IMG/VR virus record: IMGVR_UViG_3300042564_003044
Coordinates: 1-25,884 of that record
Strand: one strand, 5' to 3'
DNA: 25,884 bases
DNA from: a virus
The notes under the pieces are model-generated. The model ran no database searches and was not told the DNA's origin. It saw nothing but the letters and a program-made list of their open reading frames with translations. Below are positions 2,546-8,668 of this stretch, piece after piece; the stretch's first letter is position 1, and every line of letters begins with the position of its first letter. Both the position numbers and the translations under genes were made by a program.

Positions 2546-3214
2546 TTATTTATTTTTAAAACTCTCGTATAAGTTTAATATATCCTCTACTATTGGATCT
2601 CTATGATTAGTTAATAGTGCTACTTTTTCAAATTTATTTAAACCATTTTCTTTTAAATAATCTAAAAATTTAATTCCTGAAGTAACATTACGAGCTAAAT
2701 CTATTTGATTCACATCTCCACATAACATCATTTTACTTCCTTTCCCTAACCTCTCCATAACCATCTTAACCTGTGATTCTGTAGTATTTTGAACTTCATC
2801 CACTATAATTACAGCATCACAAAAAGTACTTCCTCTCATATAAGCAAATGGTCTTATTTGTATAATACCATCTTGTATCATTTTATCTACCTTTTCTTTT
2901 TTATACAATGCATAAAAATTTTGATAGATTGCTTGAACATAAGGGTCAAGCTTTTCCTCTAAACCACCTGGTAAAAATCCAAGTTTTTCTCCTGCTTCTA
3001 CAGCAGGTCTTGTTATTATTATATGTTTTACTTGCTTTTTAAAAAACAAATCTAAAGCCACTTGGCAGCATAATAATGTCTTACCAGACCCTGCCTTTCC
3101 TGAAATATAAGTAATGCTATTATCTAATATAACTGCTTTTGCTACCTTTTGTTCAGAATTTAAGCTAATTTGAAACTTAATATTTTTTTCTCTTTCATTT
3201 GCAAAGTCTGACAT
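2546..3214 (-). CDS. phoH: PhoH-like P-loop ATPase
   Basis: 222 aa, the length of a single PhoH domain. Walker A is GKAGSGKT (39-46), followed by the family motifs ITRP (67-70), GFLPG (79-83), AYMRGSTF (124-131), Walker B VIIVDEVQN (135-143) and the sensor-like MLCGDVNQID (163-172). All key PhoH residues are present, so an active NTPase is expected. PhoH proteins are widespread in bacteria and phages and are linked to RNA metabolism; the phage role is not settled. The gene lies between two tail-region clusters and is co-transcribed with them, which is odd for a metabolic ATPase. The start at 3214 gives MSDFANERE and leaves a 49-base gap upstream, where a one-mismatch -7 box (CATATTTG, 3237-3244) is visible. 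Confidence 0.92.
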   Translation of the reverse strand: MSDFANEREKNIKFQISLNSEQKVAKAVILDNSITYISGKAGSGKTLLCCQVALDLFFKKQVKHIIITRPAVEAGEKLGFLPGGLEEKLDPYVQAIYQNFYALYKKEKVDKMIQDGIIQIRPFAYMRGSTFCDAVIIVDEVQNTTESQVKMVMERLGKGSKMMLCGDVNQIDLARNVTSGIKFLDYLKENGLNKFEKVALLTNHRDPIVEDILNLYESFKNK

Positions 3215-3263: not shown

Positions 3264-3545
3264 TTAAATAAAAGTTTGATTATATTCTCCTGATAAATTA
3301 TATTCTACACTTAACTTATTAATATTTTCTCCAATATAAACTGCAGAAATCAATTCAAAGTCTTTATTATCTTTAACTTTTAAAGTATTATATTTATCTT
3401 GAGCTTTTTTAACTTCTTCTTTTGGAGCCTTACTTTCTACATTTTCAATAGTAGTTGTAACTAATTTAGTTTCCTCATTTTTAGTGTCAACTTTATTGGT
3501 AGTGATTTCTACCCAATTATTATTTTTTAATTTTAAATATTTCAT
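3264..3545 (-). CDS. small fibre-module partner protein (copy B)
   Basis: 93 aa. It begins MKYLKLKNNNWVEI and has a charged helical middle. The C-terminal segment FELISAVYIGENINKLSVEYNLSGEY matches the end of the 111-aa protein (YQLISADFSEKSENVFTGIINFRVNTEH) in pattern, and both have a WVE near residues 12-13. The two are therefore diverged paralogues, each placed directly after a solenoid tailspike gene. Copy B has lost about 18 residues from the helical middle. It starts 4 bases after the 425-aa tailspike stop. A fibre chaperone or small fibre subunit is a guess from gene order only. Confidence 0.65.
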   Translation of the reverse strand: MKYLKLKNNNWVEITTNKVDTKNEETKLVTTTIENVESKAPKEEVKKAQDKYNTLKVKDNKDFELISAVYIGENINKLSVEYNLSGEYNQTFI

Positions 3546-3549
3546 ATTC

Positions 3550-4827
3550 TTATATATTATTTGTTGTTGTATTTAAATTATTAATAGGATTATTATTCCA
3601 ATCTAAACAATATGCTAATATTGAAGCTCCTAAATAACTAGGATTCATTCCTGTTGTAAAATAAGCATTTCCAGTAAATTTACCAAATGTATTACCTAAA
3701 AAACTATCATTTCCTGCTTTACAGTAATAAAAATTACCTGTTGACTCGTTAGTACCAAAACTTTCTTCTCCTGCTTCACAATTATAAAAACTGCCTCCTG
3801 CAATCAAATCTGGCCAACCTTGTTTACCTGCACCAAAAGAATTATTTCCACCTTTACAGTTTTTATAAATGCTATTAGCAATATTTGCACCAAAGGATTC
3901 ATCTCCTCCTACACAATTAATAAATGAATTGTCATCACTATTCTTAACTGAAAAAGAATTATCTCCTGCTTTGCAATTATTTAATTGAGATGTTTCTATA
4001 GTAGCTGATTCTCCAGGTACATTAGTTCTTCCAAAAGAACCCCTATCAGCAGTACAATTTGTTAATGTAGAACCAAAAATTCCCTTTTCACATCCAAAAG
4101 ATTCCATTCCTGATTCGCAATCATTTAAGATTGATTCAGGAATTACAAAAAAACCAAAACTTTGAGCACCAGCTAAACAATTTTTTAATACACTACTTTC
4201 TAATTGATAACCAAATGAAAAATCTAAAGCAGTGCAATTTTCTAATGTAGAACTTATTAATATTTCTTGATTACTTGAATCCCCAAAAGAACTAAATCCT
4301 CCTTTACAATTTTTAAAATTACCTGCAACTTTACCCTCAAAAGTAGTATTTGAAAAACTGTAATCTCCTCCAATTATATTTTCAAAATAATTATTATCGA
4401 AACCATCACTTATAATAAGTCTATTATTTAAAGTGGTTAAATTAAATCCTTTTATTTTAATATCTGAAGTAGTAACTTTTATAGCAGTATTACTATTAGA
4501 ACAAGTTAAAAATACATCTGCATCTCCTGTTAATGAAATTAAATCTACATAAGGAGTATCCATTTCTAAAGTATCAAAAAAATCATACTTTCCTGGGGCT
4601 ACTAATACAGTAACTCTATTAGTATCAGACAAAAGTTGCCCATTTGGAGTCAAAGTTTTTGCAAAAGCTAATTTGTCTACTAATTCAGTACCATTACTAA
4701 AAGTATTAAAAAGATTACCATAAACTACTATATAATTATTACCTTTTAGTTGCTCTTTTGCTTCTAGTTTATCTTCTAATATTAATAAACTATTACCTAA
4801 ATCTGAGTTTGTTATTAATGTTGCCAT
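3550..4827 (-). CDS. solenoid (beta-helix) tailspike-like protein, copy B, about 11 coils
   Basis: 425 aa. Residues 1-30 form a short N-terminal part without the longer head seen in copy A. Residues 33-110 (YIVVYGN...RVTVLVAPGKYDF...LEMDTPYVDLISLTGD) match the entry strands of copy A. From about residue 148 the chain repeats NCxxGxxSFG with a 19-26-residue period (Cys at about 174, 198, 217, 237, 258, 285, 305, 324, 350, 369), as expected for a right-handed parallel beta-helix with a Cys/Gly/Ser-Phe ladder. The C-terminal cap (YCLDWNNNPINN) matches copy A. Such proteins usually trimerise into tailspikes for adsorption; enzymatic activity cannot be judged. It follows the 197-aa gene by 31 bases. 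Confidence 0.75.
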   Translation of the reverse strand: MATLITNSDLGNSLLILEDKLEAKEQLKGNNYIVVYGNLFNTFSNGTELVDKLAFAKTLTPNGQLLSDTNRVTVLVAPGKYDFFDTLEMDTPYVDLISLTGDADVFLTCSNSNTAIKVTTSDIKIKGFNLTTLNNRLIISDGFDNNYFENIIGGDYSFSNTTFEGKVAGNFKNCKGGFSSFGDSSNQEILISSTLENCTALDFSFGYQLESSVLKNCLAGAQSFGFFVIPESILNDCESGMESFGCEKGIFGSTLTNCTADRGSFGRTNVPGESATIETSQLNNCKAGDNSFSVKNSDDNSFINCVGGDESFGANIANSIYKNCKGGNNSFGAGKQGWPDLIAGGSFYNCEAGEESFGTNESTGNFYYCKAGNDSFLGNTFGKFTGNAYFTTGMNPSYLGASILAYCLDWNNNPINNLNTTTNNI

Positions 4828-4858
4828 TTTTTATATTTTTATTTTATTATTATAATTT

Positions 4859-5452
4859 TTAATATCCCCATCCTAAAGTGTTTCCTGCTAAATCTGTTAT
4901 TTGAACTGTAGTTCCATTTGTATTAGTAGGAAGAATATATCCTATTAAATTACCTGCTAAATCATTTAGTGGTACTAAGGTTTCGGTACAAACAATATTA
5001 TCAGGAAAGATATATGCAATATGATTACCTGCTAAATCTAATAGATCCACTGTAGCATTTGCTAAACTACAACCACCACAAGATACTAATCCACAACAGA
5101 TTAGCAAATTAGTTACTATCTTGTCAAAGTTCAAAGTTTCAATAGTAGCTTTTGGTCTAATCTGACCTCCATCTATCCACCATTGATATGCTCCTTCTGG
5201 AATACATAAACTTGTTCCTTTTTTACAATTATAAATATCTAGGATAAGTTTTGTAAGTGAAATAAATTTATTTTTAGGTTTTTTATTAGATTTAATTAAA
5301 TAAGCTTTTTTTATGTAAGTATTTGTTGTAGCATTACATGTTAAATTATAACAATTAAATATATCACATAATATATTACTAAAACTAGTATAACCTGCTA
5401 ATTTAGCAGATTTACTTTGTCCTTTAAAAATTGCTTCAGATATTATATACAT
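4859..5452 (-). CDS. Cys-rich fibre-module protein, copy B, with DLAGN repeats
   Basis: 197 aa. Residues 1-120 are homologous to the 148-aa protein of copy A: SEAIFKG, DIFNCYNLTC, YIKKAYL, KKP, SL-x-KL-x-x-DIYNC, LC, QWWI, IRP and TIET occur in the same order. Residues 117-128 are Cys-rich (CCGLVSCGGC). Unlike copy A, the C-terminus carries three repeats headed by DLAGN (139-143, 164-168, 187-191), spaced 25 and 23 residues, each followed by a hydrophobic strand (HIAYIFP, LIGYILP, TLGWGY). The gene comes first in the second module, just after a hairpin at 5476-5505. An adaptor linking the tailspike to the virion is plausible from order but unproven. Confidence 0.7.
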   Translation of the reverse strand: MYIISEAIFKGQSKSAKLAGYTSFSNILCDIFNCYNLTCNATTNTYIKKAYLIKSNKKPKNKFISLTKLILDIYNCKKGTSLCIPEGAYQWWIDGGQIRPKATIETLNFDKIVTNLLICCGLVSCGGCSLANATVDLLDLAGNHIAYIFPDNIVCTETLVPLNDLAGNLIGYILPTNTNGTTVQITDLAGNTLGWGY

Positions 5453-5475
5453 ATAATATTATTTATTGTGTATAA

Positions 5476-5505
5476 ATAAGCACTTACCTTTTGATAAGTG
5501 CTTAT
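5476..5505 (-). terminator. 11-bp perfect hairpin between the two fibre modules
   Basis: ATAAGCACTTA (5476-5486) and TAAGTGCTTAT (5495-5505) pair perfectly around an 8-nt loop. In the direction of the genes the hairpin is followed by TTATACAC, a poor U-tract; in the opposite direction an AT-rich stretch ending in eight T follows. It lies 13 bases after the stop of the 111-aa gene and 23 bases before the next start. It may act as an attenuator, RNA-processing site or weak terminator that sets the ratio of the two modules. Confidence 0.5.
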
Positions 5506-5518
5506 AAATTTATTTTTT

Positions 5519-5854
5519 TTAAAATCTTATTTGTTTGTGTTCTGTGTTAACTCTGAAGTTAATAATTCCTGTAAATACATTTTCAGATTTCTCAGAAAAG
5601 TCAGCAGAAATTAATTGATAAACATCTTCTTCTTTTAATTCAGGCTTTAAAGAAGTATAAACTGTATTTAACTTTTCAGATAATTCAGAAGATACTGCTC
5701 CTTCTTTTAATTCTTTAATCTTTGCTATTAATTCAGATTTAGCTTCTGCATCTGTTTCTTTAGTAGATTGTATTAACTTTATTTGAGATTCTGTTAATTC
5801 TATAGGTAATAATTCTACCCAAGTTCCTTCTATAGTTGATTGATAATTTTTCAT
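5519..5854 (-). CDS. small fibre-module partner protein (copy A)
   Basis: 111 aa. It begins MKNYQSTIEGTWVEL, continues with a charged helical segment (about residues 20-80, rich in Glu/Lys/Ser) and ends in the beta-like DVYQLISADFSEKSENVFTG segment. The N- and C-terminal ends match the 93-aa protein at 3264-3545, so the two are paralogues. It starts 15 bases after the 334-aa tailspike stop. The hairpin at 5476-5505 follows its stop. Function unknown; always being next to a solenoid tailspike suggests a tailspike partner or assembly factor. Confidence 0.65.
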   Translation of the reverse strand: MKNYQSTIEGTWVELLPIELTESQIKLIQSTKETDAEAKSELIAKIKELKEGAVSSELSEKLNTVYTSLKPELKEEDVYQLISADFSEKSENVFTGIINFRVNTEHKQIRF

Positions 5855-5869
5855 ATTTTTATTTTATTA

Positions 5870-6874
5870 TTATAATTTATTTTGAGGAGTAAATCCTTGA
5901 TTATTTGGTTCTCCATTTCCATCTACACAATATACAGTTTTACCTGCCCCAGTTACTGTTTCAAATGTTCCAGAAGTTAAACGACAGTAATATAAAAACC
6001 CATCTAGTGTTCCAAAACCTCCAAATGAGGTAGATTCACCTATGCAGTTATTAAAAATACCGTTTGCTGTTCCATTACCTCCAAATGAAACAGAAGTTCC
6101 TGTACAATTTGTATATGTACCTGAAGATACTCCTCCCATAAGTGACCCTCCAAATGAATAAGCTCCTGCTTTACAATTTTCATATATTCCTGAAGATGTT
6201 GGAAACGTTGTGCCTCCTCCAAATGAATAAGCTCCTGCTTTACAATTAATAAAAGTACCTGAGGATCCACCGTTTCCTCCAAATGAAAAATCACCTCCTA
6301 CACAATTTATATAAGTTCCTGCTGCATTAAACACTCCAAATGAATTATTTCCTCCCGTACAATTTTCTATTTTTAGTAAATTTAAAGAAGGATTAGTTTT
6401 AAATTGTTTAGTTTGTACATCTACTCCCTTTACAAAAACATCATTTGCAGTTATAAAAATTGAACCTTTTTCAGGAGTTGATAAGACAAGAGGAGCATTA
6501 AAAACAATACTTCTGTTTCCATCTAAAGACACTAAATCAATAAAATTAGTATCCATAGTAAATACATTAGATTCAAAATTATAATTACCTGGGCCAGCTA
6601 TAATCGTAATTCTTTTTGTTGATGTAGGTAATCTCATTTGAGCAGCAGTATAAGCTGCTTGAAGTTCTGCAGCATTTTCTATATCTGTACCATTAGCAGC
6701 CACATAAATATATTGGCTACCTTCTAATCCTCCTCCAAAAAGAGTTCCTAATTCTTCTACAGTTATTTTATCTGTAGAATTTGCACCTACTCTTACAATA
6801 GGTAAAACATCCACTACGGGATTTATTTGACTTCCTAATACATTAGAAAGCTCTGTTATTTTTACACTTGACAT
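5870..6874 (-). CDS. solenoid (beta-helix) tailspike-like protein, copy A, about 6 coils
   Basis: 334 aa. Residues 1-45 (VKITELSNVL...VVDVLPIVRVG...DKITVEEL) are the N-terminal head pattern of many phage tail-fibre proteins. Residues 55-125 (YIYVAANGTDIENAAEL...ITIIAGPGNYNF...FTMDTNFIDLVSLDGN) lead into a solenoid whose coils repeat NCxxGxxSFG from residue 171 to about 284 (Cys at 172, 191, 211, 234, 257, 277), ending with a YC-x-D-x-N-x-x-P-x-N cap near 315-325. Two coils share an identical 31-bp DNA segment (6148-6178 and 6217-6247, 69 bp apart), evidence of recent coil duplication. It is homologous to the 425-aa protein but has about five fewer coils. Likely role: adsorption spike on the virion. 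A second minus-strand open frame inside it (6040-6294) is an out-of-frame product of the repeats. Confidence 0.78.
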   Translation of the reverse strand: MSSVKITELSNVLGSQINPVVDVLPIVRVGANSTDKITVEELGTLFGGGLEGSQYIYVAANGTDIENAAELQAAYTAAQMRLPTSTKRITIIAGPGNYNFESNVFTMDTNFIDLVSLDGNRSIVFNAPLVLSTPEKGSIFITANDVFVKGVDVQTKQFKTNPSLNLLKIENCTGGNNSFGVFNAAGTYINCVGGDFSFGGNGGSSGTFINCKAGAYSFGGGTTFPTSSGIYENCKAGAYSFGGSLMGGVSSGTYTNCTGTSVSFGGNGTANGIFNNCIGESTSFGGFGTLDGFLYYCRLTSGTFETVTGAGKTVYCVDGNGEPNNQGFTPQNKL

Positions 6875-6893
6875 ATTTTTTTTATTTAATTTT

Positions 6894-7340
6894 TTATTTT
6901 ATAATATATTGACCACTTTGAGTAAGTAAACAATTTGAATTTTGAGTAGTGATATTAGTTAATAAATTACAACATCCAAAAACTTTTTTAATTACTCCTG
7001 TAAAGCTAATAGTTTCAATAGTTTTTCTAGGTCTAATTACATCAGTAGTAATCCACCATTGTTCACTTCTTTGTCCTACACAAAGATTTTTATTTAGTTG
7101 GCAATTGTAAATGTCCATCACTAATTTGTTTAATGACATCCAGTTTGCACCTGGTTTTTTTCTACCTCTTAATAAATAAGCTTTTTTAATAAACAAATCT
7201 GTTTTATCTTCACAACAAGCGAGGTTAAAACAAGTAAAAATGTCGTTGACAATGTCTGTCATGTTAATAAAGGCACCTTGATTGACAAGTTTATGCTTGC
7301 CTTTATAAATTGCCTCTGAAAGAATTAAAGTATTTTTCAT
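6894..7340 (-). CDS. Cys-rich fibre-module protein (copy A)
   Basis: 148 aa, homologous along residues 5-125 to the 197-aa protein of copy B, with the shared order SEAIYKG, DIFTCFNLACC, FIKKAYL, KKP, SLNKL, DIYNC, LC, QWWI, IRP, TIET. It lacks the three DLAGN repeats and ends with NCLLTQSGQYIIK. The paired Cys (FTCFNLACC, GCCNLL) could form disulfides or bind metal. It is the first gene after the strong terminator at 7403-7438, and a -7 box at 7357-7364 could start its transcript. It starts the first copy of the three-gene fibre module. Specific function not recognised. Confidence 0.7.
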   Translation of the reverse strand: MKNTLILSEAIYKGKHKLVNQGAFINMTDIVNDIFTCFNLACCEDKTDLFIKKAYLLRGRKKPGANWMSLNKLVMDIYNCQLNKNLCVGQRSEQWWITTDVIRPRKTIETISFTGVIKKVFGCCNLLTNITTQNSNCLLTQSGQYIIK

Positions 7341-7492: not shown

Positions 7493-8668
7493 TTATAGAC
7501 ATTCAAGTTCAATTGTTTTACCACAAGGACCTGTTGTAACAAAAGCATTCAAAGTATTTTCTACTGCAGTTTGAGTAGTAGTATGTGCTTCTGGAACCAA
7601 GATAGTTGTGATAAAGTTTGGATTCCAATTCATACCATTTGCATTCTCATTTGGAGAAACTGTATGATAACCCAATACATATTGGCAATATGTTTGATTA
7701 CAATCAACTAACAAGTTTTTAGTTCTTGATACACCCAATTGAGCATAGTAAGGAGCTCCTGTAGTTTCAACTTCGCTGTTTAAACCATCGAAACCTGTAC
7801 CACCTGGCATTTCATTATACTCTTCCCATTGTAATTTAGCACCATGACCTTCTGGCAATTGCATTCCTGTATTATCTACAGAAACACTTGTAGAATTTGG
7901 AGCCCATCCTGAATTTAAAGTAACTTGAATAGATCCAATAGTATATCTATCAATAATAGCTTCTGCTGGAGGGAAACATCCACAATCTGCAGTGTTTACT
8001 TTGAAAGTAACTTCGATTGCACAAGAAAATCCTGGAGCAGGAACGATTGGTGCAACTGCATCTGCTGAAGTTTTTACACTTGCCACATATTTTGACAATA
8101 ACTCATTTGACTCAATAGCAGCTTTGAATTTTAAAGCAACTTCTTCACAATCATGTGTGTAGTCGCAATCTCCATCACATGTAGGACAATCTTCTGACTG
8201 TACTGAAATGGTTTCTACATGGTATCTATTTTCTGGATAGAAAAAGTTTAATGTAGGATCATTTACTTTGATACCAATTGAGTAGTTTTGAGCACAATCT
8301 GTACAAGAAAAGTTAAACTTAGCTTTGTTAGAAGCACCTTCTTGAGGAGCTTTAACACTTGCATTATCCATTGAACATGAAGTTAAAGTTTCTCCTGCTG
8401 CTAATCTAACTCCGTCTGAAGAAAGTTTAGAAGCGTTTTTGTCAACTCCAATAGCAACATAAATTGATTTTACTCCTACAATAGTAGTAGCATCTACTGC
8501 TGTATTAGTTTCAGCATTGTAAAACCCGATTTGACCTGGTCTTAAAAGATATTGTTTAGAAGTAGCATTGTAAAATGCAGTACCAGTTGGAACAATACCA
8601 TATCCTGTCGCACTACCTGCAACTGCAGAAGTAGGAAGGAACATTTGTTTTTGAATTCTTGATCTCAT
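7493..8668 (-). CDS. probable abundant virion structural protein, 391 aa
   Basis: Begins MRSRIQKQMFLPTSAVAGSA. Residues 20-80 (GYGIVPTGTAFYN...LRPGQIGFYN...VGVKSIYVAIGV) form a beta-rich N-terminal domain. The middle has Cys clusters (FSCTDCAQN, EDCPTCDGDCDYTHDC near 155-175, DCGCFPP near 228), and the rest alternates like beta sheets to an ECL end. No signal peptide or membrane segment. I do not recognise a named family; a tail or capsid-accessory virion protein is inferred from size, position after the head-completion genes, and the private strong terminator at 7403-7438, typical of highly expressed structural genes. It starts 22 bases after the 234-aa gene. Confidence 0.65.
   Translation of the reverse strand: MRSRIQKQMFLPTSAVAGSATGYGIVPTGTAFYNATSKQYLLRPGQIGFYNAETNTAVDATTIVGVKSIYVAIGVDKNASKLSSDGVRLAAGETLTSCSMDNASVKAPQEGASNKAKFNFSCTDCAQNYSIGIKVNDPTLNFFYPENRYHVETISVQSEDCPTCDGDCDYTHDCEEVALKFKAAIESNELLSKYVASVKTSADAVAPIVPAPGFSCAIEVTFKVNTADCGCFPPAEAIIDRYTIGSIQVTLNSGWAPNSTSVSVDNTGMQLPEGHGAKLQWEEYNEMPGGTGFDGLNSEVETTGAPYYAQLGVSRTKNLLVDCNQTYCQYVLGYHTVSPNENANGMNWNPNFITTILVPEAHTTTQTAVENTLNAFVTTGPCGKTIELECL

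Follow-up and report, generated by a model that had tools for sequence, protein, structure and literature searches.

Setting and Genes of the Island

The window, that is, the whole stretch of DNA analysed here, is a virus record of 25,884 b whose minus strand carries, in this order, TerL, portal, a 376-aa protein, the capsid protein, a 303-aa protein, a ring-like 234-aa protein assigned by profile, a 391-aa protein, the island described below and PhoH. Family matches were obtained for the MCP (phrog_11589, 4e-64), the portal (phrog_6547) and TerL (phrog_6681), the MCP matching that of Fpv1 at 32% and that of crAss001 more weakly. Judged by these homologous proteins and by the order TerL-portal-capsid-ring-auxiliary capsid, the phage is crAss-like (Crassvirales-like). 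The nearest phage records are Flavobacterium psychrophilum phages such as Fpv1, and the host is probably a member of the Bacteroidota.

The original prediction described two modules, from 7340 to 5519 and from 5452 to 3264 on the minus strand, each with a Cys-rich protein followed by a solenoid tailspike and a small partner, and all six ORFs were confirmed in place. The features and their borders are:

7493..8668, minus strand: 391-aa protein, upstream border of the island; profile match to Fpv1 gp18 (E 6e-13), synteny with crAss001 gp36
6894..7340, minus strand: CysA, putative 148-aa Cys-rich anchor/adaptor, conserved domain at about residues 1-127
5870..6874, minus strand: SolA, predicted 334-aa right-handed beta-helix spike with 6 NCxGGxxSFG coils, a putative N_A docking end (KITEL) and a C_A cap
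5519..5854, minus strand: ParA, 111-aa spike-linked partner with C-terminus GIINFRVNTEHKQIRF, probable spike chaperone or cap
4859..5452, minus strand: CysB, putative Cys-rich anchor of 197 aa, carrying three DLAGN repeats towards its C-terminus at about 4870-5051
3550..4827, minus strand: SolB, predicted 425-aa beta-helix spike with 11 coils, a putative N_B docking end (MATLITNSDLG) and a C_B cap (TTNNI)
3264..3545, minus strand: ParB, 93-aa partner, distant ParA homologue by profile
2546..3214, minus strand: PhoH-like ATPase, downstream border of the island (Pfam PhoH, 9.3e-63)

By its synteny with crAss001 (PMC10172136), the 391-aa protein would hold the auxiliary-capsid position. The coil counts given earlier for the two spikes were borne out, as was the restriction of DLAGN, with its three occurrences, to CysB. 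The same A+B arrangement is present in a nearly identical contig, IMGVR_UViG_3300020500_000005 (27,975 b), making an assembly artefact unlikely. Internal repetition is apparent in the Cys domain of CysA (window 6894-7340), where three repeats seem to recur at a spacing of about 43 residues (~24-43, 67-87 and 110-127).

The proposed homology between the modules holds for CysA and CysB (148 and 197 aa; BLASTP E 2e-37, with 42% of residues identical across 123 aa) and for SolA and SolB (334 and 425 aa), which match over the whole protein with an E of 3e-19. A profile of the repeat-free SolA body, built from the single sequence and before iteration, retrieves SolB at 3.6e-9, so the similarity of the two spikes involves more than their repeats. 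For the partners (111 and 93 aa), a lack of significant similarity had been named in advance as grounds for rejecting the claim, and this is indeed what BLASTP returns (E 0.31), but profile methods recover the relationship. Thus, the ParA-family profile, searched against the 17 window proteins, finds ParB with an E of 1.4e-5 (next best, 0.31), and hhalign aligns the two families with 90% probability (E 1.7e-6), collinearly over 89 columns and nearly full length, using profiles built after the wider partner family had been collected. The idea of two homologous spike modules and two probable adsorption spikes is thus supported, and a wider host range might follow.

Fold and Family Assignments

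The AF2 model of SolA (pLDDT 85.5) contains, as a single-chain prediction, a confident right-handed beta-helix at residues 49-334, the parallel beta-helix body of tailspikes of this type. Over those residues VIA-align gives Z values of about 15-17 to the tailspikes Sf6 TSP (2vbe), Dettilon (6f7k) and Fri1 gp49 (6c72), with about 16-17 for Sf6 and Dettilon, and these share the fold with SolA; nevertheless, identity to them is about 8-10%, and the coils of SolA are distinct in being short and regular and in differing in number from one relative to another. VIA-align also matches SolA to polysaccharide-acting enzymes with the same fold, which on its own is therefore no proof of receptor binding or depolymerase activity. 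Foldseek of SolA against the PDB gave nothing below 1e-3, and in BFVD the sole strong viral match was A0A6J5PWE7 (47%), which comes from an uncultured phage and is itself uncharacterised. The AF2 model of CysA (pLDDT 48) was too poor for comparison.

Comparison of the Cys domain with selected structural proteins of crAss001, phi14:2, Fpv1, cr115 and cr118 detected no homologue, and its profile produced only a chance-level match against PDB sequences. Pfam, PHROGs and NCBIfam gave no significant match to the Cys, spike and partner families, and CysB, SolA, SolB and an external partner retrieved nothing from some 50,000 phage records. In environmental viral contigs, by contrast, spike and partner occur frequently. 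A literature search on solenoid or LRR arms returned nothing relevant.

The Island in Related Phages

The sample comprised 45 loci that encode a related capsid protein, and 15 distinct islands could be read between the 391-aa gene and PhoH. The island is hypervariable, with one to three genes per phage beginning with a Cys domain of ~125 aa. Some of these genes stand alone, either as A-type (127-149 aa) or as B-type with DLAGN (197 aa), whereas in others the Cys domain continues into leucine-rich repeats (Pfam LRR_8, E 2e-10) or into a shorter unnamed domain. CysA homologues, 54-78% identical, occupy the same island in other phages, and CysB, with a 91% identical homologue in the closest relative, L006, belongs to a separate clade (support 100/100). 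In seven relatives searched along the whole contig, the Cys domain was confined to the island.

The composition of these cassettes follows a matching rule, in which CysA goes with N_A, CysB with N_B, C_A with ParA and C_B with ParB. Stand-alone A-type Cys genes of 148-149 aa are followed by proteins with a KITEL/LTGSE-type N-terminus, and B-type genes by spikes with a MAT-ITxxD N-terminus, a spike type that in the island always comes after CysB; at the opposite end, C_A caps pair with partners of 110-111 aa and C_B caps with partners of 93-95 aa. Both rules are visible in a mosaic lineage (L011, L012 and L042; one lineage, three contigs), which combines CysB and N_B with C_A and an A-type partner. 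The spike of this lineage shares about 92% identity with the L016 spike across aligned columns 120-280, but the two are unrelated in the first 40. Since the spike N-terminus matches the type of the neighbouring Cys protein, it is probably the end docking onto the Cys adaptor, and since the C-terminal cap matches the type of the partner, the latter would probably be dedicated to that spike, as a folding chaperone or as a transient cap. Near-identical spikes range from 314 to 460 aa, with ends still 95-98% identical.

In one relative, L031 (15172-17691), a 720-aa fibre built of NNxIG repeats, its N-terminus of the LTGSE type, takes the place of spike and partner, and the 114-aa gene downstream of it has no partner-family match.

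The Spike-Partner Pair beyond the Island

The partner family, whose hallmark is a C-terminal GIINCRVNGEHKQIRF, occurs in many unrelated viral contigs. In all 55 distinct testable cases (55/55), the partner lies just downstream of a spike of the SolA/SolB kind; conversely, 38 of the 48 spikes judged have a partner after them, with a gene between the two in three. Linkage and co-segregation with the spike C-terminal end, including the recombinant L011, were both found, as in a pair formed by a tail fibre and its cognate chaperone. Spike and partner are thus a mobile pair occurring in unrelated phages. Elsewhere the spike has a different N-terminus, which in some phages matches a known tail-fibre protein, and in a Flavobacterium MAG (prophage tail operon) the pair follows the baseplate-hub and tail-protein genes and closes the operon. 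Both this operon and the tail-fibre N-termini support a role in tail adsorption and a Bacteroidota host, which the window's phage would presumably share.

The word tail is nevertheless a matter of interpretation, since the spikes could instead be mounted on the capsid as head fibres. The island comes after the capsid and auxiliary-capsid genes, and crAss001 has two kinds of head fibre (PMC10172136). However, the crAss001 head-fibre genes (gp21 and gp29) are located elsewhere, and outside this lineage the spike and its partner belong to a tail/baseplate operon, or the spike bears a fused tail-fibre N-terminus, so that a capsid location seems improbable and we favour the tail. T4-type gp38 adhesins are permanent tip adhesins, and the partner could likewise stay on the spike tip rather than act as a chaperone; co-segregation with the C-terminal cap is what a tip-bound protein would produce. 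Yet a receptor-binding tip is expected to be its most variable part, and in unrelated phages the GIINCRVNGEHKQIRF motif is the most conserved part of the partner. A permanent tip adhesin is accordingly an unlikely identity for this protein, and a chaperone or transient cap is preferred.

Spike and partner are separated by a glycosyltransferase-like gene (phrog_1574; weak Anp1) at L049:5401-6084 and at L103:2504-3223, a hint that some spikes may be glycosylated. Spikes with no recognisable partner in L195, L198, L203, L211, L212 and L218 are followed by a long protein (377-1336 aa) starting like MTTYSFIQYDVL.

Duplication or Cassette Exchange

The two modules had been explained by a tandem duplication followed by divergence. 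The homologous pairs in matching order stand, but the AU tests and the closest relative speak against an in-place event as the origin of the present pair. In the trees, A copies cluster with the A copies of other phages and B copies with B copies. A grouping of the window's A and B copies as sisters, the mutual closest relatives that an in-place duplication would have left, is rejected by AU tests for Cys (p 4e-6), the Sol body (p 2e-57) and the partner (p 6e-101), with groupings partly chosen after the trees were seen and some long branches. The DNA direct repeats between the modules are short and 60-80% alike, and hence show no sign of recent duplication.

In L006 (MCP 99%, TerL 96%), the island begins with a 271-aa fused Cys protein, followed by CysB-SolB-ParB. 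Blastn aligns the window to this contig at 8668-6969 (90%) and at 5467-301 (86%), with nothing substantial between, which delimits two segments:

6969..7340, minus strand: shared Cys domain; similarity to L006 ends at 6969, about CysA codon 124, the putative exchange boundary
5468..6968, minus strand: putative exchanged cassette with the rest of CysA, SolA and ParA, missing from L006 (blastn gap)

Because the similarity breaks off where the Cys domain ends and sets in again at 5467, shortly before CysB, the arm cassette of slot one appears to have been exchanged for another, and the borders are those that a cassette replacement would leave. Judged from this one close relative, the window lineage would have gained A, the reverse change in the L006 lineage being possible.

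A duplication is not dispensed with altogether. As the Cys domain has been found only in this island, at least CysA and CysB descend from a duplication, so that an old duplication of the anchor has still to be assumed. It could also be argued that the whole three-gene module was duplicated in place in an ancestor, diverged for a long time and lost one or the other copy in relatives, and this agrees with three homologous pairs in matching order, with the island-only Cys domain and with a single clade of island partners, which is not rejected (p 0.17). Against it, SolA and SolB are separated in the tree by solenoids from unrelated phages, and one common origin for all solenoids of the island is rejected (AU p 2e-4); furthermore, the window's phage alone, among the 15 distinct islands, has both spike modules together, and the first slot of L006 is different, with sharp borders. 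To a duplication of the whole module we therefore assign a low probability, and cassette exchange on an anciently duplicated Cys anchor is preferred.

A Proposed Adsorption Island and Its Relation to Known Systems

Taken as a whole, the locus is probably an adsorption island in which swappable arms are mounted on a Cys adaptor. The homologies, the predicted fold of SolA, the linkage of the gene pair, the exchange boundaries and the N/C mosaicism are the observed part of this explanation. The conserved Cys-rich domain (about 125 aa) would be an adaptor attached to the virion and represented by several paralogues, each with a different display arm, either fused leucine-rich repeats or a neighbouring beta-helix spike plus partner. 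Docking of the spike and its chaperoning are read from co-segregation and linkage; location on the virion and receptor binding are likewise presumed. Cassettes would recombine at the Cys domain and at gene borders, and in this way CysA-SolA-ParA may have taken the first slot beside a pre-existing CysB-SolB-ParB, giving two different spikes. With even chances, in our estimation, the apparatus works as a plug-board, where a Cys adaptor seen so far only in this crAss-like lineage takes one to three arms, as fused LRR or as spikes docked in trans, and draws its spike-chaperone pairs from a pool shared with unrelated phages.

Alteromonas phages A5, V22 and P24 share a host-recognition module (tail fibre plus cognate chaperone) between morphologically different phages, and the chaperone requirement has been shown for V22 (PMC10579305). 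Like the window's, this module pairs a fibre gene with that of a small cognate partner downstream and recurs in distantly related phages. However, no shared family has been shown, the window spike is an NCxGGxxSFG beta-helix presumably seated on a multi-copy Cys anchor, and the need for a chaperone is here only presumed. The alcyoneusviruses RaK2 and phiK64-1 have a multi-spike adsorption apparatus, the arms of RaK2 including demonstrated depolymerases (PMC10253068). Several receptor-binding arms per phage are likewise predicted for the window's, although its arms have no demonstrated activity and a single adaptor family would bear them, fused or in trans. What is less usual here is that the number of arms varies and that one and the same adaptor also bears LRR arms.

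In crAss001, the fibre docking hub and fibres comprise THA gp38, THB gp39 and gp22 (PMC10172136). The likeness lies in hub proteins that contain Cys and whose genes come after the auxiliary capsid gene, and in a trimeric fibre docked by its N-terminus, as is presumed for the window's spikes, whereas the Cys domain has no sequence homology to gp38 or gp39 detected by HMM or hhalign. Synteny had suggested that this domain might be THA itself, an identity for which those searches gave no sequence support; a 188-aa protein (1977-2543) looks the likelier THA by eye and is likewise not significant.

The island may be regarded as a natural record of a crAss-like phage rebuilding its host-recognition gear, with a fixed adaptor, interchangeable arms and spike ends under different matching rules, which are open to tests with recombinant proteins. 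The Cys, spike and partner families should also aid in annotating host-range genes of uncultured Bacteroidota phages.

A third SFG-type spike, of 355 aa, was observed on the contig of the closest relative (L163:6670-8080), downstream of a tail-fibre gene and outside the window. Its N-terminus is of a different, Cys-containing type, and the 107-aa partner encoded after it ends in INCRNINLQLRQIRF.
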